A DNA stretch of 64,000 nt, from NCBI RefSeq assembly GCF_900199375.1, contig NZ_LT900217.1, positions 1,860,001-1,924,000 of the forward strand. Reading direction: 5' to 3'. The DNA comes from Gordonibacter urolithinfaciens (GTDB lineage Bacteria > Actinomycetota > Coriobacteriia > Coriobacteriales > Eggerthellaceae). Below the pieces are notes generated by a model. It did not search any database. It was not told where the DNA came from and saw nothing but the letters and a program-made list of their open reading frames with translations. The position numbers were made by a program, and so were the translations under genes. The number at the start of each line of letters is the position of its first letter. The first letter of the stretch is position 1. This document shows positions 8,744 through 20,661 of this stretch, one piece after another.

Positions 8744-8890
8744 ATGAGCATCGAATGCGCTCTTGAAATCCTGTACGCCGCCGCAGCGGTGGCGACGATA
8801 GCCGGGTTCGTTCTGGCTGTCTGGGAACATAAGCGGAGGGATGACGTGGGAGGAGGGGGAGACCCCGAGCGCAAAAAAGATCGGCGCTAG
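8744..8890 (+). CDS. Holin-like small hydrophobic toxin (type I toxin candidate)
   Basis: 48-residue protein: an acidic start (MSIECALEIL), one transmembrane helix (about residues 7-27, ending in Trp), then a charged tail with HKRRDD and ERKKDRR. Single-helix peptides with this layout are known as putative holin-like or Fst-like toxins, mostly from Firmicutes, and depolarise the membrane when overproduced. The Shine-Dalgarno region GGGGAGGTGA is unusually strong, 8 bp before ATG. The stop codon lies inside the hairpin (8879-8909) that ends the convergent antisense RNA. The gene has its own promoter and is flanked by terminators. Identification rests on architecture, not a family search. Confidence 0.65.
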   Translation: MSIECALEILYAAAAVATIAGFVLAVWEHKRRDDVGGGGDPERKKDRR

Positions 8891-8974
8891 CTGGAACTAG
8901 TCGCCGATCTGGGTAAATCCGCGCCGCCCGTGTAGCAACACCTCTAACGAGGTTGGAACGGGCTTTGCCGGTGC
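8873..8974 (-). ncRNA. Antisense antitoxin RNA candidate
   Basis: On the minus strand an extended -10 TGCTATAAT (hexamer at plus 8981-8986) and a -35 TTGCGC (plus 9003-9008) with a 16-bp spacer predict a start near 8974. The RNA would run into a hairpin, stem 8879-8886/8902-8909, followed by six U (plus A-run 8873-8878), giving about 100 nt. It overlaps the 3' end of the toxin mRNA. Internally it holds AACCUC, which can pair with GAGGU of the toxin ribosome-binding site. This matches convergent type I modules such as Fst/RNA II. Confidence 0.6.
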
Positions 8975-9078: not shown

Positions 9079-9177
9079 CTTTACGCTGCCCTTTCCTCAT
9101 CCTGATCCCGTCTTTGCCTGATCTTGGGAGCATCTTTACGTGCGCCTGAACCCGCTTTTACCTGCCTTTCGTAGCAT
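9079..9177 (+). promoter_or_regulatory. Pho-box-like array upstream of the phosphonate operon
   Basis: Heptamers related to CTTTACG recur at 9079, 9091, 9101, 9112, 9123, 9134, 9145, 9155 and 9166, that is every 10-12 bp (CTTTACG, CTTTCCT, CCTGATC, CTTTGCC, CTTGGGA, CTTTACG, CCTGAAC, CTTTTAC, CTTTCGT). Direct repeats in 11-bp phase are the binding pattern of PhoB/PhoP response regulators. A -10-like TAGCAT (9172-9177) follows. It is placed 86 bp before phnD, as expected for phosphate-starvation control of C-P lyase. The regulator is not in this window. Confidence 0.55.
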
Positions 9178-9262
9178 GGTCTGCAACGCGCCGAGCAATC
9201 GGCGGCGCGGCAACGAGACAACACTCCGGCGCTAAGGCCGGGAATGCGAAAGGATGGGTCGA

Positions 9263-10366
9263 ATGGCAGACGGGTACCTGAGCAGGCGGCAGTTCGTGGC
9301 CGGCGGAGCGGCTGTGGCATTGGCGGGCATGTTCGGCGTGATGACGGGCTGCACGGCCGGGGGGTCGGGCGCGGCGGCGGGCGCGGCCGACCCGCAGTCC
9401 GGCAACGGCGGCGGCGCGGGCGACGGCTCGTCCGAGCCGATCACGTTCGTGTGGCTGCCGGACAACTCCTCGTCGGACATGACGTCGTCGCGCGAGGCCA
9501 TCGGCGCAGCCATCCTGGCGGCCTGCGGGCGCAAGGCCGAGCTTCTGACCACCACCGACTACAACGTGGCCATCGAGGCCATCGCCTCGGGCAAGGCGCA
9601 GATGGCGCTCCTCGGCCCCGAGGGCTACGTGCAGGCCAACAAGAAGAACTCCGCCGTGCAGGCGGCGTTCACGAACAGCGACGAGGACGGCGGCCTGGAC
9701 GGGGCGTGCTACTACAGCCGCATCTGCGTGCGCACCGAGGACGCCGACGCGTACAAGAGCGGCAGCGGCTACTCCATCGAGGGCATCAAGGGCGGGTCGT
9801 TCTCGTTCGTGTCCGCCACCTCCACGTCGGGTTTCAAGGTGCCTTCGAGCGGCATCGTGGAGGAGTTCGACCTGGACAGTTCCGACGTGCTCTTGGAGGC
9901 GGGCGGCTTCTTCAGCGAGGTGTTGTTCGGCAACTCGCACGTGGGCTCGGTGGTGAACCTGCTCTCGGGCGACGCCGACGCTGCCGCGTTCGACGACGTC
10001 GACGTGGACATGTACCTGGACCTCGTGTCCGGCGAGCCCAACAGCGTGGGCGCGGTGTACCAGGCCAAGGCCGACGCCGAGGCGCCCATGGACACCGTGC
10101 GCGGCAAGCAGTTCACCATCATCGCCGTCACGCCGGTGCTGAACTCGCCTTTCTGCTTCAACGAGGACGCCATTTCCGAGGAGGACCGCACGAAGATCGT
10201 CGACCACTTCTGCTCGGACGCGGTGGCCAACGACCCGGCCATCTTCGTCGATCCCGAGGATGAGAACGCGAAGGGCCTGTTCGAAAAGGATTCCGACAAG
10301 ACGTGCTTCGTGAAGACCGACGACGCGTGGTACGAGCCCATCCGCAAGCTGGGCGGGGCCGCGTGA
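9263..10366 (+). CDS. phnD: Phosphonate ABC transporter substrate-binding lipoprotein
   Basis: Captures phosphonates outside the membrane for the PhnCE importer. About 367 aa with a twin-arginine-like signal (SRRQFVAGG) followed by a lipobox (VMTGC), so it is a Tat-type lipoprotein. The body is a type II periplasmic-binding fold with the PhnD signature region (TTTDYNVAIEAIASGKAQ...). ATG 9263 was chosen because AAAGGA lies 8 bp before it; the in-frame ATG at 9254 overlaps that site. It is first in the operon, downstream of the Pho-box-like array, and its TGA overlaps the phnC ATG. Confidence 0.9.
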   Translation: MADGYLSRRQFVAGGAAVALAGMFGVMTGCTAGGSGAAAGAADPQSGNGGGAGDGSSEPITFVWLPDNSSSDMTSSREAIGAAILAACGRKAELLTTTDYNVAIEAIASGKAQMALLGPEGYVQANKKNSAVQAAFTNSDEDGGLDGACYYSRICVRTEDADAYKSGSGYSIEGIKGGSFSFVSATSTSGFKVPSSGIVEEFDLDSSDVLLEAGGFFSEVLFGNSHVGSVVNLLSGDADAAAFDDVDVDMYLDLVSGEPNSVGAVYQAKADAEAPMDTVRGKQFTIIAVTPVLNSPFCFNEDAISEEDRTKIVDHFCSDAVANDPAIFVDPEDENAKGLFEKDSDKTCFVKTDDAWYEPIRKLGGAA

Positions 10367-11241
10367 TGGCCGAGCCTCTGCTGGCGGTGCGGGGCCTGAC
10401 GAAGAGCTACGACGGCTGGTCGAAGGCGCTTGACGGCGTGTCGATGGAGGTGGCGCGCGGCGAGTTCGTGTCCATCATCGGCTCGTCGGGCGCGGGCAAG
10501 TCCACGCTGCTGCGCTGTGCGAACCGCCTCGTCGATCCCACCCAGGGTACGGTGGCGTTCGACGGCTGCGACGTCACGCGCGTGAAGGGCCGCGAGCTGC
10601 GCCAGGTGCGCCGCCGCATCAGCATGATCTTCCAGCACTACAACCTGGTGTACCGCGCCACGTCCATCGAGAACGTGCTGCAGGGCCGCCTGGGCTACAA
10701 GTCCACGGCGGCCGGCGCGCTCGGGCTGTTCTCGGAGGACGAGAAGCGCCGTGCGTTCGAGGCGCTCGACCAGGTGGGCCTGGCCGACTTCGCCTACACG
10801 CGCACCGACCAGCTGTCCGGCGGGCAGAAGCAGCGCGTGGGCATCGCCCGGGCGCTCGTGCAGGACCCGTTGCTCATGCTGGCCGACGAGCCCATCGCCA
10901 GCCTCGACCCGAAGTCGTCGCGCACGGTCATGGAGCACCTGCGCTGGGCGGCCGACGAGCTGGGCATCGCGTGCCTCGTGAACCTGCACCAGGTGGATTT
11001 CGCGTTGGAGTTCTCCGATCGCATCGTGGCGCTCAAGAGGGGCCGGCTCGTGTTCGACGGATCGCCGTCCCAGCTCGACGAGGCCGCCATCGCCGCTATC
11101 TACGAGACGGATGAGGGCGATGGCGAAGGGGTTGGCGGCGACGCGGGCGGTGCAGGTGGTGCGGGGGCTGCGGGCGCACCGGCATCGGGCGGTCCCGGCG
11201 ATATCACTGGCGCCGCGCCCGTGGCGGGAGAGGCCGCATGA
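10366..11241 (+). CDS. phnC: Phosphonate ABC transporter ATP-binding protein
   Basis: 291-aa ATPase powering phosphonate import. Walker A GSSGAGKS near residue 41, signature LSGGQKQR, Walker B MLADEP and the switch His (NLHQVD) are all intact. PhnC proteins usually end near residue 255; here a Gly/Ala-rich tail of about 35 residues is added, low in complexity and probably a result of high-GC drift. It overlaps phnD by 1 bp and phnE by 4 bp, which implies translational coupling. Confidence 0.93.
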   Translation: MAEPLLAVRGLTKSYDGWSKALDGVSMEVARGEFVSIIGSSGAGKSTLLRCANRLVDPTQGTVAFDGCDVTRVKGRELRQVRRRISMIFQHYNLVYRATSIENVLQGRLGYKSTAAGALGLFSEDEKRRAFEALDQVGLADFAYTRTDQLSGGQKQRVGIARALVQDPLLMLADEPIASLDPKSSRTVMEHLRWAADELGIACLVNLHQVDFALEFSDRIVALKRGRLVFDGSPSQLDEAAIAAIYETDEGDGEGVGGDAGGAGGAGAAGAPASGGPGDITGAAPVAGEAA

Positions 11242-12098
11242 TGGAGCGCACATTGCGGCCGTCGGGCCTGATCGCTGGCTTGCGCGGTGGAAAGGCTCAG
11301 CGGCGCGGCCAATACGACGCGTCCTTCTTCGTCCGCCGCACCGCGTCCCTCGTAGTTGCGGCGCTCGTGTTCGTGGCGCTCGGCGCGCTGTCGGGCACGT
11401 ACGTCGGATTCGATTTCGTGCAGGCAATCCTCGACGTCCCGGGCGGGTTCGCGTGGATGGCCGCCCAATTCGCCCCCTCCCTCCCTTCCCTTGGCAAATT
11501 GGGCACCATCCTTCCCGCCTTGGGTTCGACGATCCTCGCCTCCATCGCTTCCAGCTGCACGGCGGCGGTGTTGGCCTATATAGTCGCAGTGCTCGGTTCG
11601 CGTACGGTGGGGGTGGGGGGACCCGTTCCCCTCATCGTGCGCGGCATCGCGTCGCTCTTCCGCAATATCCCGGTGGTGGCCTGGGCTTTCATTTTGCTGT
11701 TCTCGTTCAAGCAGAGCGAGTTCACCGGGTTCTTCGCCCTGTTCCTCACCAGCTTCGGCTACCTGACGCGCTGCTTCCTGGAAAGCATCGACGAGATGGG
11801 CTCCGGGCCGGTGGAGGCGCTGCGGGCGGCGGGCGCCACGTACGGCCAGATCGTGGTGCAGGCCGTCATTCCGATGAGCATCACGTCGGTGGTCAGCTGG
11901 GTGCTCTACATGATTGAGACGAACATCCGCGACGCCACCCTCATCGGCCTGCTCACCGGCACGGGTATCGGTTTCGTGTTCGACGTGTACTACAAGAGCT
12001 TCCGCCACGACGTGGCCGGCTTGGTGATACTCGTCATCATCCTGGCCGTGGTGGCGTGCGAGCTCGCCTCGAACTTCGTGAGGAGGAAGATCCTGTGA
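11238..12098 (+). CDS. phnE: Phosphonate ABC transporter permease, first copy
   Basis: 286-aa permease with about six membrane segments. The cytoplasmic EAA loop (EALRAAGATYGQIVVQAVIP) that docks onto PhnC is at about residues 195-215. A positively charged N-terminus of 35 residues precedes the first helix. It starts inside the phnC stop (ATGATG) and overlaps the second permease by 4 bp. Two consecutive phnE genes are common in Gram-positive phosphonate operons and probably form a heterodimeric channel. Confidence 0.9.
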   Translation: MMERTLRPSGLIAGLRGGKAQRRGQYDASFFVRRTASLVVAALVFVALGALSGTYVGFDFVQAILDVPGGFAWMAAQFAPSLPSLGKLGTILPALGSTILASIASSCTAAVLAYIVAVLGSRTVGVGGPVPLIVRGIASLFRNIPVVAWAFILLFSFKQSEFTGFFALFLTSFGYLTRCFLESIDEMGSGPVEALRAAGATYGQIVVQAVIPMSITSVVSWVLYMIETNIRDATLIGLLTGTGIGFVFDVYYKSFRHDVAGLVILVIILAVVACELASNFVRRKIL

Positions 12099-13060
12099 CG
12101 GGCTGTGCAGACAAGATCGCGGCCGAAGCCGCCGCGGCCTCCCTGGCGGAGGAGGTGGGCGCGACGCGCAGTATGCCGGCCGACGAGCGCGGCGTCGGCG
12201 CTGGCGCGGGTGTCGCGCCGATGCGGGCGAACGGTGCGCGTCTGACCCGGTCGGGCAAGATCAAGGTGCGGGTGCCCAACCCGTCGAACGTGGCGCTGTT
12301 CGCCGTGCTGGCCGCTTTGGCGCTGGTGACGGCGTTCGCGCTGGCCACGATGGACTACGGGAAGGTGGCGTTCCCCGCGGCGATGGCGGCCGCGGTGGAC
12401 GATTTCCTCACCATGATGCTGCAGCCGGGCCTCGGCGGGCACTTCACGCTGCCCGACGTGGTGGAGGGCCTGTTCGTCTCGCTGGCGCTGGCGCTGCTCA
12501 CCACGTTCATCGGGGCGGCGATCGCCTTCGTGCTGGGGCTTCTGGCCGCGTCCAACCTGTCGAACCGCGCCGCGAGCAACGCCATCAAGGTGCTCATGAG
12601 CGTGGCGCGCGCCGTGCCCACCATCCTGTGGGTGCTCGTGTTCAGCGTGGCCATCGGGCTGGGGCCGGAGGCGGCCGTCATCGGCCTGCTGTTCCACAGC
12701 GTGGCGTACCTGGTGAAGGCGTACTCGGAGAGCTTCGAGGAAGTCGACGCCGGCGTGATCGAGGCACTGCGCGCCAGCGGCGCGTCGTGGTGGCAGGTGG
12801 TGTTCCAGGGCGTGGTGCCCGAGAAGGTGAACGAGATGCTGTCGTGGACGTTCATCCGCTTCGAGATCAACTTCGTGAACGCCGTGGCCGTGGGCGCCGT
12901 GGCGGGCGCGGGCGGCATCGGCTACCAGCTGTTCCTGGCGGGGAGCTTCTACTACAACATCCACGAGGTGGGGCTGATCGTGTACTTGTGCCTTGCGGTG
13001 GCCGTGGTGCTGGAAGTGGCGGCGACGAAGCTGCGGAAACGGTACTTGGTGCAGCGGTAG
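12095..13060 (+). CDS. phnE: Phosphonate ABC transporter permease, second copy
   Basis: About 321 aa from a GTG at 12095 that overlaps the previous stop (GTGA). The first 60 residues are a polar, Ala-rich extension of uncertain status; in-frame ATGs at 12174 and 12222 are alternative starts. Six membrane segments follow, with the EAA loop (IEALRASGASWWQVVFQGVVP) intact. Paired with the upstream permease. After its stop there are 310 bp with repeats before phnG, so the transport genes and the lyase genes may be separate or attenuated units. Confidence 0.88.
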   Translation: MTGCADKIAAEAAAASLAEEVGATRSMPADERGVGAGAGVAPMRANGARLTRSGKIKVRVPNPSNVALFAVLAALALVTAFALATMDYGKVAFPAAMAAAVDDFLTMMLQPGLGGHFTLPDVVEGLFVSLALALLTTFIGAAIAFVLGLLAASNLSNRAASNAIKVLMSVARAVPTILWVLVFSVAIGLGPEAAVIGLLFHSVAYLVKAYSESFEEVDAGVIEALRASGASWWQVVFQGVVPEKVNEMLSWTFIRFEINFVNAVAVGAVAGAGGIGYQLFLAGSFYYNIHEVGLIVYLCLAVAVVLEVAATKLRKRYLVQR

Positions 13061-13253: not shown

Positions 13254-13324
13254 GATGACAGGGGGACGTGACAGGGGGAGACCGTGACAGGGGGAGACCG
13301 TGACAGGGGGACGGTTCTCTTGTC
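13254..13324. repeat. Tandem 16-bp repeats with a terminal hairpin
   Basis: GTGACAGGGGGAGACC recurs with 16-bp period at 13268, 13284 and 13300, with a partial copy at 13254. The last copy runs into ACGGTTCTCTTGTC, which pairs with GACAGGGGGA allowing G-U pairs. The block lies in the leader of phnG, 47 bp before its GTG start. A frame starting in the repeat at 13284 would lengthen PhnG by 29 non-conserved residues and is rejected. Similar GACAGGGGGACGG elements are scattered extragenic repeats in many genomes. Confidence 0.75.
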
Positions 13325-13370
13325 GTTGGGGAAAGAGAAGTCGGTTTTGAGACGGACGGAAAGGATTGTT

Positions 13371-13820
13371 GTGAGTTTGAAGCGATACGAGAGAACGCGG
13401 GCGTTGGTGGACGGGGATCCGTCGCTGGCGCGGGAGATTGTGCGGGAGGTGGAAGGCGAGCTGGGCGCGGAGGCGCTCGAGGAGCTCGATGCGCCGCGCG
13501 AGGAGCTGGTGATGGTGCAGGTGCGCGAGACGGCGCAGGGCGGCCTGTTCTACCTGGGCGAGGCGCTCATGACGTCGTGCCGGGTGCGCGTGGGCCCGTC
13601 CGTGGGACTGGGGCTCGTGCTGGGCAGCGATCGCTGCCGCGCCTACGAGCTGGCCGTGGTGGACGCGGCGTTCGCGGGCGAGGCAGGTGCGCCGCGCGCG
13701 GAGCGCTGGGACGGGCGGCTGCGGCAGGAGCTCGCGCGCATCGAGGCCCGCGAGGCGGCCGAGGCGCGCCGCGTCGCCACGACGAAGGTGGACTTTTCGA
13801 CTATGAAGGTGGAAGCATGA
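13371..13820 (+). CDS. phnG: C-P lyase core subunit PhnG
   Basis: 149 aa, the usual PhnG length, from GTG 13371 preceded by GGAAAGGA. Part of the PhnGHIJ core, which couples phosphonate to ATP (forming ribose 1-phosphonate triphosphate) and carries PhnJ. The family features are visible: VQVRETAQGGLFYLGEALMT in the middle and the C-terminal KVDFSTMKVE, matching the RVDFFTM end of the Escherichia coli protein. Its stop overlaps the phnH ATG (ATGA). Confidence 0.9.
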   Translation: MSLKRYERTRALVDGDPSLAREIVREVEGELGAEALEELDAPREELVMVQVRETAQGGLFYLGEALMTSCRVRVGPSVGLGLVLGSDRCRAYELAVVDAAFAGEAGAPRAERWDGRLRQELARIEAREAAEARRVATTKVDFSTMKVEA

Positions 13821-14644
13821 TGATAAGGGAAGATGCCGAGCTGCACCGGGCGCAGCGGGCGTTCCGAAGCGTGCTCGACGCGTTCGCACGGCCCGGCACC
13901 GTGCAGAGCATCGAGCTGGCGCCCGGCAACCCGGCGCGTCCGGCCGCGCTCGACGCCGCGCTCGAGGCGGCCACGCGGCTGTTCGTGGATCAGGCGGTGA
14001 CGTTCTGCGTTGCCGATTCCGAGACGGACGCGACGACCGCCTACCTGACGAGCGAGACGCATGCGCGCCGCGCGCCCCTGCGCGATGCCGACTTCGTGGT
14101 GGTTCCCGCCCGTGCCGACGCGCAGACGGCACGCGAGGCGGTGGCCGAAGCGTGCCGCGGCACGCTGACCTCGCCCGAGAAGGGCGCGACCGTGCTCATG
14201 GGCTGCGCCCGTCTGGCCGAGGTGCCCGAGGACGGCCAGGTGGCCGAGCCGGCCGTCCATGTGGTGGCGCTGCGCGGCCCGGGCGTGGAGCGCGAGAACC
14301 GCTTCGCCGTCGACCGCGCCGACTGGCTGCGTGCCCGCGACGCGCGGGGCGACGAGTTCCCCTGCGGCATCGAGATCGTGCTGGTGGATCCGGACGGCCG
14401 CGTGGTTGCCGTGCCGCGCAGCTCCCGCGCGACGTTGCTTGACGTGAAACAATCGGCACAAGGTGGTGCGACAAGGGAACAAATGTTTCACGTGAAACAT
14501 TCCGAGGCTGCGCCCGGCGAGGCCGTGGAGACCGGCGCTTCGGTCGCAGGCGGCGCGTCCTCCGCTTCCGCCGAGGACCGCGCTTTCTCCGTATCCGCCG
14601 CGTCTGCCGTGGGCTGCGCGTCCGCCGCGAAGGAGGTGCGCTAG
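13817..14644 (+). CDS. phnH: C-P lyase core subunit PhnH with long C-terminal tail
   Basis: 275 aa; the PhnH core (AQRAFRSVLDAFARPGTVQ to EIVLVDPDGRVVAVPRS) ends near residue 205, so about 70 residues of Ala/Ser/Glu-rich tail are extra compared with the E. coli protein of about 194 aa. The tail reads through a perfect parS site (14484-14499, giving MFHVKH) and a degenerate one at 14436. It looks like permissive coding sequence tolerating a chromosomal site. Start overlaps phnG by 4 bp, stop abuts phnI. Role: PhnGHIJ complex subunit. Confidence 0.9.
   Translation: MMIREDAELHRAQRAFRSVLDAFARPGTVQSIELAPGNPARPAALDAALEAATRLFVDQAVTFCVADSETDATTAYLTSETHARRAPLRDADFVVVPARADAQTAREAVAEACRGTLTSPEKGATVLMGCARLAEVPEDGQVAEPAVHVVALRGPGVERENRFAVDRADWLRARDARGDEFPCGIEIVLVDPDGRVVAVPRSSRATLLDVKQSAQGGATREQMFHVKHSEAAPGEAVETGASVAGGASSASAEDRAFSVSAASAVGCASAAKEVR
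14436..14451. promoter_or_regulatory. Degenerate parS-like site
   Basis: TGCTTGACGTGAAACA agrees with the parS consensus at 14 of 16 positions. It lies 48 bp (start to start) from a perfect site, inside phnH. Possibly a weak secondary ParB site or chance. Confidence 0.35.
14484..14499. promoter_or_regulatory. parS: parS chromosome-partition site
   Basis: TGTTTCACGTGAAACA is the exact 16-bp palindrome bound by ParB/Spo0J across bacteria, extended by one base pair each side. ParB loads here and spreads, recruiting SMC and guiding origin segregation. It sits in the non-conserved 3' part of phnH. A second perfect copy is at 21932. Confidence 0.88.
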
Positions 14645-15814
14645 ATGGGCTACGTAGCCGTCCGCGGTGGCGGGAAGGCCATCGAGGAGAGCCTCAAGCT
14701 GCTGGAGTACGAGCGCGTGAGCGCGTCGTCCGCCTGGGGAACCGACGAGATCGAGGGCACGTTCCCCGAGCTGGTGGACCAGGTGATGGGCGAGGCATCG
14801 CTGTACGCCCCGCGCCTGGCGGCGCTCGCGCTCAAGCAGGCGCAGGGCTCGCCCGACGAGGCCGTGTTCCTGCTGCGCGCGTTCCGCTCCACGCTGGAGC
14901 GCCCCTATGTCTCGCGTCCGGTGGACACCGGAGCCATGCGCGTCGCTCGCCGCGTGTCGGCCGCCTTCAAGGACGTGCCCGGCGGCCAGGTGCTCGGCGC
15001 CACGCGCGACTACAGCCACCGTTTGCTCGCGTTCGATCTGGAAACGGAAGGTGCCGAGGAGCTGGCCGGGAAGCGCGCCGCGCTGGCCCGCCACTTCGAG
15101 GAAGCCGTCGGCGACGCCCCCGAGTCCCCCGCAACCCTTCCTCGCGTGCTCGACTACCTGCGCACCGAGGGGCTCGTTGCGCGCGTGCCTGCCGACGAGG
15201 CCCCGCCCGTGGATGCCACCATGGTGCCGCTCGCTTTTCCCGCGCCGCGCTCCGTGCGCTTGCAGACGCTCGCGCGCGGCATGACGCAAGCGGTGGAGGC
15301 GCTGGGCTATGCCGCCATTCGCGGGTTCGGCCCGGCGCATCCCACGGTGGGCGAGCTGCGGCAGGGCCGCGTGGCGGTGGCCGTGGACGATCCGCTCGAG
15401 GCGGGCGGGCCGGACGACGCCTACTACCTGGGCTCGCTCCCCGTGACCGAGGTGGAGAGCGTGTTCGAGGGCGAAGGCGAGGACGGCCTCGCGCTCGACA
15501 TCGGCTACGGGTGCGTGATCGGCCGCGCCGAGACGAAGGCCATTGCCATGAGCGTGCTCGACCACTGCCTCGAGCATGGCGACGCGCGCTACCCAACGGA
15601 AGACGAGGAGTTCGTGCTCTACCACGTGGACGGCGTGGAGGCCACGGGCTTCATCTCGCACCTCAAGCTGCCGCACTACGTGACGTTCCAGTCGAAGCTG
15701 TCCAGCGTGCGCGGCACGCGCGGCGACGCGGCTCCCGACGACGACCAAGCCGCCGACCAGGCCGCCATCGCGGCACTGGAAGCGAAGGAGGCGACCGATG
15801 CAGCAGCGCTATAA
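14645..15814 (+). CDS. phnI: C-P lyase core subunit PhnI (nucleosidase)
   Basis: 389 aa, close to the family norm. PhnI displaces adenine from ATP so that phosphonate becomes attached to ribose C1, working in the PhnGHIJ complex. Begins MGYVAVRGGGKAIEES, the conserved PhnI N-terminus, and carries the family segment QTLARGMTQAVEALGYAAIRGFGPAHPT near residue 200-230 as well as RDYSHRLLAFDLE. The last 35 residues are Ala/Asp-rich. AAGGAGGTG stands just before the ATG. It overlaps phnJ by 17 bp. Confidence 0.92.
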   Translation: MGYVAVRGGGKAIEESLKLLEYERVSASSAWGTDEIEGTFPELVDQVMGEASLYAPRLAALALKQAQGSPDEAVFLLRAFRSTLERPYVSRPVDTGAMRVARRVSAAFKDVPGGQVLGATRDYSHRLLAFDLETEGAEELAGKRAALARHFEEAVGDAPESPATLPRVLDYLRTEGLVARVPADEAPPVDATMVPLAFPAPRSVRLQTLARGMTQAVEALGYAAIRGFGPAHPTVGELRQGRVAVAVDDPLEAGGPDDAYYLGSLPVTEVESVFEGEGEDGLALDIGYGCVIGRAETKAIAMSVLDHCLEHGDARYPTEDEEFVLYHVDGVEATGFISHLKLPHYVTFQSKLSSVRGTRGDAAPDDDQAADQAAIAALEAKEATDAAAL

Positions 15815-16688
15815 CTACGCGTTCTTCGACGAGGCGTCGAAGCGCGAGATCCGCCGCGCTCTCATCAAGGGCGTGTCCATCCCCGGCTATCAGGTGCCCT
15901 TCGCCTCGCGCGAGATGCCCATCGGCCGCGGCTGGGGCACGGGCGGCCTGCAGATCACGCTGGCCATCATCGGTCCCGATGACACGCTCAAGGTGATCGA
16001 CCAAGGCTCCGACGACAGCGTGAACGCCGTTAACATCAAGAAGCTCGTCGTTGACACCACCGACGTGGAGGTGACTGACGACACGGAATCGGCCACGCTC
16101 ATCCAGTCGCGCCACCGTATTCCCGAGCATCCGCTCGACGAGGGCCAGATCCTCGTGCTGCAAGTGCCCACGCCCGAGCCGCTGCGCAGCTTCGAGCCCA
16201 GCGAGGCCGCCACCAAGCGCCTCCATGCCGAAGCCGACTACACCGGCGCATGGCTCGAGCTGTTCGACCAGATCGTGCGGTACGACGCTACCACGACCGG
16301 CGCCGACCATCCCGTGCAGGTGTTCGGCCGCTACGTGATGGCCCCGTCGCCCATCCCGCGCTTCGATAACCTGAAGCTTAACCAGGCGCGGCACCTCACG
16401 CTGTTAGGAGCCGGCCGCGAGAAGAAGATCTACGCCGTGCCGCCCTTCACCGACGTCGTCCCCCTCGACTTCGAGGACTACCCCTTCGCGGTGGAGCGCT
16501 TCGACGGGAAGCGCTGCCGCCGTTGCGGCGCGACGGGCGTCTACCTCGACGAGCTCGTCGACGAAGCCACCGGCGAAACGTACTACCAATGCAACGACAC
16601 CTCATGGTGCGCGCGTGTCCCAAATGGGGACAGTCCCCATGTGGGACATCGCGCGCAGCGACGCGAGGAAGGAGCTCCCCATGCTTGA
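15798..16688 (+). CDS. phnJ: C-P lyase PhnJ (radical SAM-type)
   Basis: The catalytic C-P lyase: with SAM and a [4Fe-4S] cluster it breaks the carbon-phosphorus bond of ribose 1-phosphonate 5-phosphate, giving alkane and 5-phosphoribosyl 1,2-cyclic phosphate. The four key cysteines are present at C240, C243, C265 and C271, one residue off the E. coli positions 241, 244, 266 and 272. The family protein ends soon after the last Cys; here about 25 extra residues are encoded by a REP-like palindrome (16617-16647) and following bases. phnK starts 8 bp inside the 3' end. Confidence 0.95.
   Translation: MQQRYNYAFFDEASKREIRRALIKGVSIPGYQVPFASREMPIGRGWGTGGLQITLAIIGPDDTLKVIDQGSDDSVNAVNIKKLVVDTTDVEVTDDTESATLIQSRHRIPEHPLDEGQILVLQVPTPEPLRSFEPSEAATKRLHAEADYTGAWLELFDQIVRYDATTTGADHPVQVFGRYVMAPSPIPRFDNLKLNQARHLTLLGAGREKKIYAVPPFTDVVPLDFEDYPFAVERFDGKRCRRCGATGVYLDELVDEATGETYYQCNDTSWCARVPNGDSPHVGHRAQRREEGAPHA
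16617..16647. repeat. 31-bp REP-like palindrome at the phnJ/phnK junction
   Basis: Arms GTCCCAAATGGGGAC (16617-16631) and GTCCCCATGTGGGAC (16633-16647) match at 14 of 15 positions around one base, and further GCGCG-rich flanks extend the pairing. It is translated as the tail of PhnJ. A hairpin here would also sit 34 bp before the phnK start. Looks like a mobile extragenic palindrome that settled in a tolerant spot. Confidence 0.7.
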
Positions 16689-17541
16689 TGCGCAACGATT
16701 CGGCGTCGACGAGGAGCCGTGCCTGTCGGTGCGGCACCTGTCGAAGCGCTTCGGGGTGGGATGCCCGCACTGCCTCGGCGCGGTCGCGCAGCTCGAGCGC
16801 AACGTGTGCCCGCGGTGCGGCACGGTGCACGCCGTGCGCGATGTGAGCCTCGACGTGTTCCCGGGCGAGATCGTCGGCATCGTCGGCGAGTCGGGCAGCG
16901 GGAAGTCGTCGCTCATGAAGTGCCTGTTCTTCGACGAGGAGGCCACGGAAGGAGACGTGCGCGCCCGCCCGTTCGACGGCGGCGCGGCGAACCTGCTGGA
17001 ACGGTCGTCCCAGCATCAGCGCGCCATCCGAAACACGGTGTTCGGCATGGTGTACCAGAACCCCTACCTGGGGCTGCGCATGGATTTCTCCAGCCTGTCG
17101 AACATCGCGGAGCAGATGATCGCCGCCGGCAACCGCCACGTGGGCGCCATGCGCGATCGCGGCAAGGAGCTGCTCGAGCGCGTGAACATCCCGCTCTCGC
17201 GCGCCGCCGAGCCGCCGCGCAACTTCTCCGGCGGCATGCAGCAGCGCGTGCAGATCGCCAAGGCGCTGTCGAACAACCCGCCCATCCTCCTGCTCGACGA
17301 GGTGACCACGGGGCTCGACCTGTCCGTGCAGGCCGCCGTGCTCGACCTCATCCAGCAGATCCGTCGCGACTTCAACGTCAGCATGCTCGTGGTCAGCCAC
17401 GATTTGGGCGTCATCCGCATGCTGGCCGACCGCACGCTCGTCATGCTGGACGGCCGCGTCATCGAAAGCGGCCTGACCGACCAGATATTGGAAGACCCGC
17501 AGCACGCCTACACCCAGCAGCTCGTCTATTCGCTTCTGTAG
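16681..17541 (+). CDS. phnK: C-P lyase ABC protein PhnK with zinc-ribbon insertion
   Basis: 286-aa ATPase that binds the PhnGHIJ core and is needed for turnover rather than transport. Walker A GESGSGKS (69-76), signature FSGGMQQR, Walker B LLLDEV and switch His (VVSHD) are intact. Unlike E. coli PhnK, residues 28-46 hold two CxxC pairs (C28/C31, C43/C46: GCPHC and CPRCG) that would bind zinc or iron before the P-loop. ATG 16681 follows AGGAAGGAG. It overlaps phnJ by 8 bp and is 19 bp from phnM. Confidence 0.93.
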   Translation: MLDAQRFGVDEEPCLSVRHLSKRFGVGCPHCLGAVAQLERNVCPRCGTVHAVRDVSLDVFPGEIVGIVGESGSGKSSLMKCLFFDEEATEGDVRARPFDGGAANLLERSSQHQRAIRNTVFGMVYQNPYLGLRMDFSSLSNIAEQMIAAGNRHVGAMRDRGKELLERVNIPLSRAAEPPRNFSGGMQQRVQIAKALSNNPPILLLDEVTTGLDLSVQAAVLDLIQQIRRDFNVSMLVVSHDLGVIRMLADRTLVMLDGRVIESGLTDQILEDPQHAYTQQLVYSLL

Positions 17542-17560: not shown

Positions 17561-18871
17561 ATGAACGACAACTCCTGCATCATCCGCGGCGGCACGGTGG
17601 TGTGCGCCGACCGGGTGCTTCCCGACCACGACGTCGTGGTCATCGACGGGCGCATCGCGGCCATCGAGCCCGCCGGCGCGTCCGACTTCGACGCGCAGCC
17701 CGACGCCACCGTGGGCGTGCTGCCCATCGTGGACGCGCGCGGCGCGTTCGTGGCGCCCGGCCTCATCGACATCCACTCGGACTACGTGGAGAACGTCGCC
17801 TCGCCGCGTCCGAGCGTGGTCATGGACCTGAACACGTCGCTGTACAAGGCCGACCGCGAGCTCGTGTCGCACGGCATCACCACCATCTTCCACTCCCTGT
17901 CGGTGTACGGCGCGCACATCTTCGACCACAAGCCCATCCGCGACTTCGGCAACGTGAGCGCGCTCATCGACCGTGTGGCCGGCCTGCGCGCGGGCGAGGA
18001 GCGCGACCACCTCATCCGCCACCGCCTGCACATGCGCGTGGAGCTGGACTCGGTCGACCTCTACGACGACATCGAGGCGTTCCTGCGCTCCGGCAAGGTG
18101 GACCTCGTGTCGTTCATGGACCACACGCCCGGCCAGGGCCAGTACCGCGACCTCCTGCTGTTCGGCGACACGCTCAAGGGCTACCGCGACGTCACCGACG
18201 ACGAGGTGCGCGACATCATCCGCCAGCAGCAGGAGAGCAGCAAGATGACGTACGCGCAGATCGCGGCCCTGGCGTCCATCGCGTGCGAGCGCGGCATCTC
18301 CATCGCGTCGCACGACGACGACAGCGCGGAGAAGCTCGCGTTCATGGACGGCCTGGAGGCCTCCATCTCCGAGTTCCCCATCTCGCTCGACGTGGCCCGC
18401 GAGGCGCGCGCCCGCGGCCTGCACACGGTGGCCGGCGCGCCGAACGTGATGCTGGGCCACAGCCACTCCGGCAACCTGAGCGCGCGCGAGGCTGTTGCGG
18501 CCGGCGCCATCGACGTGCTGTGCAGCGACTACTACCCGGCGGCGCTGCTCGACGCCGTGTTCGCGCTGCGCGACGAGTGCGGGCTCGACATCGCGCGGGC
18601 CTTCGCGCTCGTGTCCGCGAACCCGGCGAAGGCCGCCGGCATCGCCGACGAGGTGGGATCGCTCGCGGTGGGCAAGCGCGCCGACGTGCTGCTCGTGCGC
18701 GAGATCGCCTGCGGCGAGGCCGGCACGCGCACGATGCCCGTGGTCACGCGCGCGTTCGTGGGAGGCCGCTCCGTGTTCCGCTCGCATTACCCCGACCAGC
18801 CTCTCGGCTACGCCCGCGACCTGGGCGAGCACGTGCAGGTCCGGCGCGCCCTCGCCTCCGAGGCGGTGTGA
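17561..18871 (+). CDS. phnM: Ribose 1-phosphonate triphosphate diphosphatase PhnM
   Basis: 436-aa amidohydrolase-superfamily enzyme that removes pyrophosphate from alpha-D-ribose 1-phosphonate 5-triphosphate before PhnJ acts. Metal-binding elements are visible: GLIDIHSDYVE near residue 67 (HxD in place of the usual HxH, as in the PhnM family), ASHDDDS near 250 and the C-terminal SDYYP. AAAGGA stands 9 bp before the ATG. It lies between phnK and phnL, an order that differs from E. coli (K-L-M). Confidence 0.93.
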   Translation: MNDNSCIIRGGTVVCADRVLPDHDVVVIDGRIAAIEPAGASDFDAQPDATVGVLPIVDARGAFVAPGLIDIHSDYVENVASPRPSVVMDLNTSLYKADRELVSHGITTIFHSLSVYGAHIFDHKPIRDFGNVSALIDRVAGLRAGEERDHLIRHRLHMRVELDSVDLYDDIEAFLRSGKVDLVSFMDHTPGQGQYRDLLLFGDTLKGYRDVTDDEVRDIIRQQQESSKMTYAQIAALASIACERGISIASHDDDSAEKLAFMDGLEASISEFPISLDVAREARARGLHTVAGAPNVMLGHSHSGNLSAREAVAAGAIDVLCSDYYPAALLDAVFALRDECGLDIARAFALVSANPAKAAGIADEVGSLAVGKRADVLLVREIACGEAGTRTMPVVTRAFVGGRSVFRSHYPDQPLGYARDLGEHVQVRRALASEAV

Positions 18872-18872
18872 C

Positions 18873-19571
18873 ATGGCGCTCCTGGAAATCGATGACCTCT
18901 CGAAGTCCTTCCTGCTGCATCGCGTGGACCGGCGCATCCAAGGGTGCCAGCACGTGAGCTTCGCCATTGAGCCGGGGCAGTTCGTGGGCATCACCGGGCG
19001 CAGCGGCAGCGGCAAGTCCACCATCCTGCGCTGCATCTGGCGCACGAACCTGCCCGAGCAGGGGCGCATCCTGTACGATTCCGCCCGCTTCGGCCTCGTC
19101 GACCTCGCGCAGGCCACGCAGCGCCAGATGCTCTACCTGCGCGCCTTCGAGCTGGGCTACGTGTCCCAGTTCCTCAACGCGCTGCCGCGCCAAACGGCCC
19201 GTGACATCGTGCTGAAGAGCGCGCTCGAAGCCTACGGCGCCGACGAGCGCGCCCGCGCCGAGCAGGAGACCGAGCGCATGCTGCGCCACTTCGACCTGGA
19301 CGAGAGCCTGTGGGAGCTCTACCCGCGCACCTTCTCCGGCGGCGAGAAGCTGCGCCTCAACATCGCCGCCGCCATGATCAAGCGCCCGCGCCTGCTGCTC
19401 CTGGACGAGCCCACCGCCTCGCTCGACAACGCGTCGAAGCTCAAGGTGCGCACCCTCATCGAGCAGCTCAAGGCCGAGGGCACCACCATGCTCGGCATCT
19501 TCCACGACCTCGAATTCATGGACGGCTTGTGCGATCATGAGTTCAACATGCAGGAAGGGATGATGGCGTGA
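18873..19571 (+). CDS. phnL: C-P lyase ABC protein PhnL
   Basis: 232-aa second ATPase of the C-P lyase machinery. Walker A GRSGSGKS near residue 42, signature FSGGEKLR, Walker B LLLDEPTASLD and the switch His (GIFHDL) are present. PhnL binds PhnK on the core complex. The start is 1 bp beyond the phnM stop. After the gene, 298 bp containing a small inverted-repeat element separate it from phnPP. Confidence 0.93.
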   Translation: MALLEIDDLSKSFLLHRVDRRIQGCQHVSFAIEPGQFVGITGRSGSGKSTILRCIWRTNLPEQGRILYDSARFGLVDLAQATQRQMLYLRAFELGYVSQFLNALPRQTARDIVLKSALEAYGADERARAEQETERMLRHFDLDESLWELYPRTFSGGEKLRLNIAAAMIKRPRLLLLDEPTASLDNASKLKVRTLIEQLKAEGTTMLGIFHDLEFMDGLCDHEFNMQEGMMA

Positions 19572-19869: not shown

Positions 19870-20661
19870 ATGAAAGCCGACCTCCACGTGCACACCACCA
19901 TGTCGGACGGCTCGGACACCTTCGAGGAGGTGCTCGCCCAGGCGCGCGAGCGCGGCATCGGGCGCATCGCGTTCACGAACCACGACACCACGTGCGGCCT
20001 GGACGGGGCTGCGGCCCTCGGCGCGCGCTACGGCGTCCAGGTCACGGGCGGCATCGAGGTGAGCGCCTACGACTTCCAGCGCGGCCGCAAGGTGCACGTG
20101 CTGGGCCTCGGCCTGTGCGAGGACGCGCCCGCGCTCGCCGCCCTCTGCGGCCCGCTGCTCGAGCGCCGCAACCAGAACTCGCTCTGGCAGCTCGACCGCA
20201 TGGTGGAAGCCGGCCTCCCCGTCGACGTCGAGCGCGCCCTCGCCCTCGGCCGCGCCTCCACCTGCCTGTACAAGCAGCACCTCATGGCCGCGCTCACCGG
20301 CGAGCCGCACCCGAGCGCCGCCTACCGCGCGCTCTACCGCAGCCTGTTCAAGGACGGCGGCATCTGCGACCGCGACATCGCCTACGTGGACGTCCGCGAC
20401 GCCGTGCGTGCCATTGCGGAGGACGGCGGCCTGCCCGTGCTCGCGCATCCCGGCCAGCTGGACAGCTACGACCTCGTCCCCGAGCTCGTCCCCCTCGGCC
20501 TCGCCGGCATCGAGCAGCACCACCCCGACCACACGCCCGCCGACCACGACCGCTGCGCCCAGCTGGCCGAACGCTACGCCCTCGCCTGCACCGGCGGCTC
20601 CGACTACCACGGCCGCTTCGGCTCCATCCCGCACGTGGGCTACCGCATTCCCCAAGCCTGA
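19870..20661 (+). CDS. phnPP: PHP-family 5-phosphoribosyl 1,2-cyclic phosphate dihydrolase
   Basis: 263-aa PHP phosphoesterase. Metal ligands of the PHP fold are visible: HVHTTMSDGSD (His6, His8), TNHD near residue 41, GGIEVSA, VLAHPGQ near 193 and SDYH near the C-terminus. A published E. lenta enzyme of this family hydrolyses the cyclic product of PhnJ to ribose 5-phosphate and phosphate, replacing the PhnP and PhnN steps, which fits the absence of phnP and phnN here. The assignment to that enzyme is from memory of the family and context. A GGGAAGGGG site precedes the ATG. Confidence 0.85.
   Translation: MKADLHVHTTMSDGSDTFEEVLAQARERGIGRIAFTNHDTTCGLDGAAALGARYGVQVTGGIEVSAYDFQRGRKVHVLGLGLCEDAPALAALCGPLLERRNQNSLWQLDRMVEAGLPVDVERALALGRASTCLYKQHLMAALTGEPHPSAAYRALYRSLFKDGGICDRDIAYVDVRDAVRAIAEDGGLPVLAHPGQLDSYDLVPELVPLGLAGIEQHHPDHTPADHDRCAQLAERYALACTGGSDYHGRFGSIPHVGYRIPQA

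Follow-up and report, generated by a model that had tools for sequence, protein, structure and literature searches.

The Pho box is described as a series of direct repeats, each with seven conserved bases followed by four that vary more, in the portion of PMC4415409 available to us, which also ascribes multiple boxes to Escherichia coli ugp, their count not being given there, and lists RegX3 among the phosphate-starvation systems. In E. coli the box lies about 10 bp upstream of the -10 element, a short and constant gap, with its last unit over the -35 region (PMC1906773, accessible part), and phn is activated by PhoB, according to the available text of PMC10294691. Here we describe an unusually long array of this kind in front of the phosphonate operon of Gordonibacter urolithinfaciens. 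The window, that is, the whole 64,000-nucleotide stretch analysed, corresponds to C1:1860001-1924000 of a one-contig 3.29-Mb genome, and its PhnD is 96% identical to PhnD of Gordonibacter pamelaeae 7-10-1-b.

Results

The array occupies the forward strand of the window and was delimited by direct reading, with scores taken from the unit matrix described below.

9079 to 9162, forward strand: PHO-box-like array, eight 7-nt units in exact 11-bp steps
9079, forward strand: unit 1, CTTTACG
9090, forward strand: unit 2, CCTTTCC, weak on the matrix (1.1)
9101, forward strand: unit 3, CCTGATC
9112, forward strand: unit 4, CTTTGCC
9123 to 9133, forward strand: unit 5 with its linker, together CTTGGGAGCAT (core CTTGGGA), off-consensus (matrix score -0.8)
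9134, forward strand: unit 6, CTTTACG
9145, forward strand: unit 7, CCTGAAC, weak on the matrix (1.2)
9156 to 9162, forward strand: unit 8, TTTTACC, in the -35 region, nine bases upstream of the -10
9163 to 9171, forward strand: 9-nt spacer, containing the ninth unit of an earlier note on this DNA
9172 to 9177, forward strand: -10-like TAGCAT

The earlier note had counted nine units spaced 10-12 bp apart. Its direct repeats in 11-bp phase stand, but the units number eight, their steps are exactly 11 bp, and the supposed ninth (9167, score -1.7) falls in the spacer that separates unit 8 from the -10. The -10-like TAGCAT it had placed after the array is confirmed at 9172-9177; relatives mostly carry TACGAT instead. 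Unit 8 lies over the -35 region, and reading showed no hexamer resembling TTGACA at 16-18 bp spacing from the -10. As far as sequence can tell, the array has the architecture of a PHO box: two or more 7+4 direct repeats of 11-bp period, whose last unit covers the -35 region a short, constant distance upstream of the -10. Tandem Repeats Finder gave no row at the array.

The unit matrix has seven positions and was built from 15 rows of nptA, pstS and PiT promoters only, phn being excluded. At 9079 the eight-unit sum is 44.9 (z 7.9), the highest among 127,824 positions when both strands of the window are scored. Only period 11, among periods 7-15, gives a positive sum, and the 11-mers on either side fall to -19 (9068) and -16 (9178). 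Each half array also stands out alone, units 1-4 ranking first and units 5-8 third of 127,912 in the window. The array is real and beyond chance. A full-length profile (R2; 55 positions, 15 promoter rows, without phn rows) misses phn both in the genome and in the window, probably because it had learned the linkers of its training promoters; the single-unit matrix from those promoters recovers the array. Wider searches relied on a profile, R1, of 24 promoter rows (9 phn, 9 pstS, 5 nptA and 1 PiT).

Behind the array, all on the forward strand, lie transport and C-P lyase genes.

9263 to 10366, forward strand: phnD-like binding lipoprotein with a twin-arginine signal (start chosen by visual comparison with relatives; the ORF as listed begins at 9254)
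10303 to 11241, forward strand: ABC ATPase ORF, phnC-like
11238 to 12098, forward strand: permease ORF, phnE-like
12056 to 13060, forward strand: second permease ORF, phnE-like
13284 to 13820, forward strand: phnG
13577 to 14644, forward strand: phnH ORF, true start probably later
14645 to 15814, forward strand: phnI
15798 to 16688, forward strand: phnJ
16615 to 17541, forward strand: ABC protein ORF, phnK-like, named by place
17561 to 18871, forward strand: amidohydrolase, phnM-like, named by place
18495 to 19571, forward strand: ABC protein ORF, phnL-like, named by place, true start probably later
19870 to 20661, forward strand: PHP-domain protein

On the other side of the array, window 8744-8970 holds a 48-aa ORF that has a single hydrophobic segment and no Pfam family, followed by inverted-repeat-rich DNA; by eye it looks like a small membrane-toxin locus.

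The box is common to other phosphate-acquisition genes of this genome. A simple two-unit pattern matches the genome 18 times versus 11 for the reversed control; six of these matches, the sole perfect one among them, precede nptA, two PHO4-family (PiT) genes and pstS, and the other 12, including a one-mismatch match, lie away from those four genes. At E<=10, R1 finds six places in the genome, four of which, at pstS, nptA, phn and PiT, are its own promoters. The fifth, untrained (E 0.0125), is upstream of a calcineurin-like phosphoesterase (metallophosphoesterase) gene. Two places lack any evident phosphate gene, namely the weak R1 match at C1:1677073 (E 0.51) and the pattern match with one mismatch at C1:1628199. 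The second PHO4-family gene has two units only, not a full array. The gap from last unit to -10 is 9 nt at phn, pstS and PiT and 10 nt at nptA. There, four units are followed by TATCCT both in this genome and in seven relatives, with TATTCT in an eighth.

The array at the phosphoesterase gene (G000:C1:2514924-2514965, reverse strand; L140) has five to six units, and the product has a twin-arginine-like start, making it a candidate Pho-controlled secreted phosphatase. In the pst locus (L081), units CTTTACG and TTTGACC stand 11 bp apart between pstB and the regulator gene (L081:7690-7720), and no pair in the window matches the score of this pair (n=127,966). Their position suggests self-control of phoBR. 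In another genome (G126, L167) an array lies upstream of the PhoB-like regulator gene itself.

Across the family, R1 at E<=0.01, with filters that lose some weak matches, yields 77 matches, spread over 41 of the 138 genomes. Phosphate or phosphonate genes follow 71 of the 77, which is an enrichment rather than a fully independent count, since the R1 training promoters are among the matches. By coordinates, 23 precede pstS, 15 phnD and 14 nptA. The other 25 were named by Pfam scan for eight proteins plus this genome's PiT and by eye for the rest, PstB included. They comprise 15 PiT, two PstB, one PhoB-like regulator and one PHP protein divergent from phnD, all phosphate-linked, together with two matches before an undecaprenyl-phosphate-translocase-like gene (G052, G053) and four with no evident phosphate link (L185, L189, L190, L191). 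Three clean box units stand at the translocase-like gene in both genomes, which belong to one genus (L187 in G053, L188 in G052). At E<=0.001, 26 of 346 genomes of the class (the family's share of which is not stated) have matches, and only two matches lie outside the family, before NptA-like and PstS-like genes named by eye. The suggestion that the motif would define the lineage's Pho consensus is supported, and the proposed search before other phosphate genes found the motif concentrated there, with boxes at pstS, nptA and PiT. Judged from these promoters, the Pho box of Eggerthellaceae is about YTTKACS-N4, in a promoter of activator type.

PhnD matches occur in 32 of the 138 family genomes. 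Upstream DNA was compared for 29 loci, L003-L031; this set takes in the locus of the window and omits L032 and four additional places that lack a locus. In 21 of the 29 the best chain, which may include weak units, has at least four units and is equalled in none of 200 dinucleotide-matched resamples of the sequence. Exactly eight units are present in 11 loci (L003, L005-L012, L014, L015); the others have 11 (L029), 10 (L017), seven (L016, L018, L027), six (L013, L028), five (L022, L023) or four (L030). Among the eight loci without such an array, seven are readable, with one unit (L019, L021, L024, L025, L026, L031) or two (L020), and one, L004, is N-masked in the slice, although R1 still finds a box upstream of phnD in its genome. 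The conservation expected of the phn upstream regions in Eggerthellaceae thus extends to most loci and fails in the seven readable ones.

Other phosphate promoters are shorter. nptA has 4-6 units in this genome and its eight closest relatives (L051-L059) and 1-6 in 21 more distant loci; pstS, covered in 26 of 30 loci, has four units in 15 and one to six in the others; PiT has four in 10 of 11. Most nearer genera have exactly eight units at phn, versus mostly four at nptA, pstS and PiT. On the sequences compared, the phn array is about double the length of the others, and the doubling is conserved at the phosphonate operon. As an origin of the eight units, a 44-bp duplication was considered and set aside: identity at lag 44 reaches 0.57 in the window, yet its mean over 12 loci is 0.43, which does not exceed that at lag 22 (0.45) or lag 55 (0.45), and we do not claim such an origin.

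Across ten loci, made up of the window and nine relatives, seven of the eight units have a 7-nt core that is more strongly conserved than the 4-nt linker. Majority agreement reaches 0.78 over the array and -10, versus 0.46 in the 40 nt upstream and 0.55 in the 40 nt downstream. Unit 5 (CTTGGGNGCWT) has nine of 11 columns in agreement in at least seven of the ten loci, its linker being as conserved as its core. If unit 5 is read as the right arm of a palindrome, a matching left arm can be seen by eye in the L006/L009/L010 group; it is absent in L017, and we reject the palindrome as a general feature.

In this genome the pst operon runs pstSCAB, then a PhoB-like regulator, then a PhoR/PnpS-like kinase. 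Neither the regulator nor the kinase reaches the curated equivalog cut-offs for PhoB, PhoR and PnpS, and the closest solved relative of the regulator is RegX3 (2oqr, E 1.7e-50); a two-component system of PhoB/PhoP/RegX3 type is thus encoded. In this locus (L081; G000:C1:2201000-2216000) the two genes follow pstSCAB directly and there is no phoU; the only PhoU match of the genome is weak and falls within NptA. Of 55 family genomes with this pstS, only nine have a strong PhoU match (E<1e-15) apart from the weak domain in NptA. That count comes from an intersection made by hand; not all of the genomes are complete, and a PhoU of very divergent sequence could escape.

A separate observation concerns the PstS-like protein at L081:4014-4946, whose N-terminal part matches the C-terminal part of PstS-type profiles, and vice versa. 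By profile matching it looks circularly permuted, and the PstS-like protein in L196 has the same pattern by eye. A literature search for permuted PstS found nothing related.

Discussion

We propose a model in which phosphate shortage would lead to phosphorylation of a PhoB/RegX3-type regulator, which would then line up head to tail on the array, each dimer taking two units, so that eight units would hold at most four dimers. The dimer at unit 8 would stand in for the missing -35 and recruit sigma70-type RNA polymerase to TAGCAT nine bases downstream. Transcription would start from this promoter, and phnDCE and the C-P lyase genes would be activated along with the remaining Pho regulon. As the phn operon shares its box word with other phosphate-uptake genes, joint switch-on at phosphate exhaustion is very probable. 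The binder is very likely the PhoB/RegX3-like regulator of the pst operon. Taken as a whole, an eight-unit PHO box through which that regulator would activate phn under phosphate shortage is an explanation we hold with high confidence.

The alternative that survives best is a mosaic array, in which Pho units flank unit 5 (CTTGGGNGCWT) as the site of a second factor and the operon is under joint control. Unit 5 is poor on the unit matrix yet conserved across loci with its linker, as such a site would be; it nevertheless keeps exactly the phase of the other units, and some array loci (L016, L018) have an ordinary unit at its place. We consider a mosaic unlikely.

OmpR-family members commonly read direct repeats. 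The 18 Trans_reg_C domains encoded in the genome mean that other OmpR-type regulators exist, and the pst-operon regulator is accordingly a likely rather than a proved binder. One of the others might bind or share the array, but the boxes follow phosphate genes in 71 of the 77 family matches, and the PhoB-like regulator sits in a box-bearing operon and, in G126, has its own box upstream. These points make a different regulator highly improbable. A chance pyrimidine-rich tract or functionless decayed tandem repeat, with which degenerate copies and the empty Tandem Repeats Finder result would agree, is in our view refuted by the first rank of the held-out matrix (z 7.9, period 11 only), the unit counts and conservation across genera with cores above linkers, and its probability is negligible.

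The PHO box in front of phn is unusual in its doubled array and conserved off-consensus unit 5, as is the missing PhoU. It is tempting to speculate that the phn operator is two four-unit Pho modules in one register, a dedicated switch of high cooperativity that would delay the costly C-P lyase until deep phosphate shortage in a lineage mostly without a detectable separate PhoU. We offer this tentatively and find it rather doubtful. Array length may nonetheless influence the threshold or the steepness of the response, and the contrast of four and eight units provides natural variants with which to study operator length.

Beyond this operon, the analysis yields a usable Pho-box consensus for Eggerthellaceae, YTTKACS-N4 with the last unit 9-10 nt upstream of the -10, as well as a first Pho regulon based on sequence for this gut family, and it links phosphonate breakdown in the gut to phosphate control. 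Within the open-access literature, with subscription journals mostly outside, the best-ranked 12-15 papers per search showed, by title and abstract start, no report of a Pho box or regulon in Eggerthellaceae, and no paper was found to combine phosphonate, C-P lyase and Eggerthella. The kind of switch is well known; what is new for Eggerthellaceae, as far as we found, is the description of its word and of its long row.

The array resembles the E. coli PhoB box in its 7+4 repeats, its near-constant gap to the -10 and phn as a target, but the E. coli consensus is CTGTCAT, versus about YTTKACS in Eggerthellaceae. The available part of PMC10294691 has the E. coli phnC site conserved in few of the species compared, whereas the phn array of Eggerthellaceae is found in 21 of 29 loci. 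The cyanobacterial SphR box, from an unrelated lineage, has a similar word, with the consensus CTTAACCT and 3-bp linkers (accessible portion of PMC1906773) and thus 11-bp steps; it has three tandem repeats, against eight at Gordonibacter phn. Mycobacterial RegX3 is alike at the protein level, as the closest solved relative of the pst-operon regulator. Streptomyces PhoP boxes likewise form runs of 11-nt units covering the -35 region, at glpQ1 and glpQ2 (PMC7866108, in the part available), with the consensus GTTCACC (PMC4415409, likewise) versus about YTTKACS here. The longest Streptomyces run among those described in that part of PMC7866108 has six units, at pitH2, versus eight at Gordonibacter phn. 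That the array would exceed most Pho boxes holds in that it is about double the lineage's usual four; with eight units rather than nine, it does not lie outside every known range. Given six units in Streptomyces and the multiple boxes of E. coli ugp, as far as these sources describe them, eight is long, though not unheard of.
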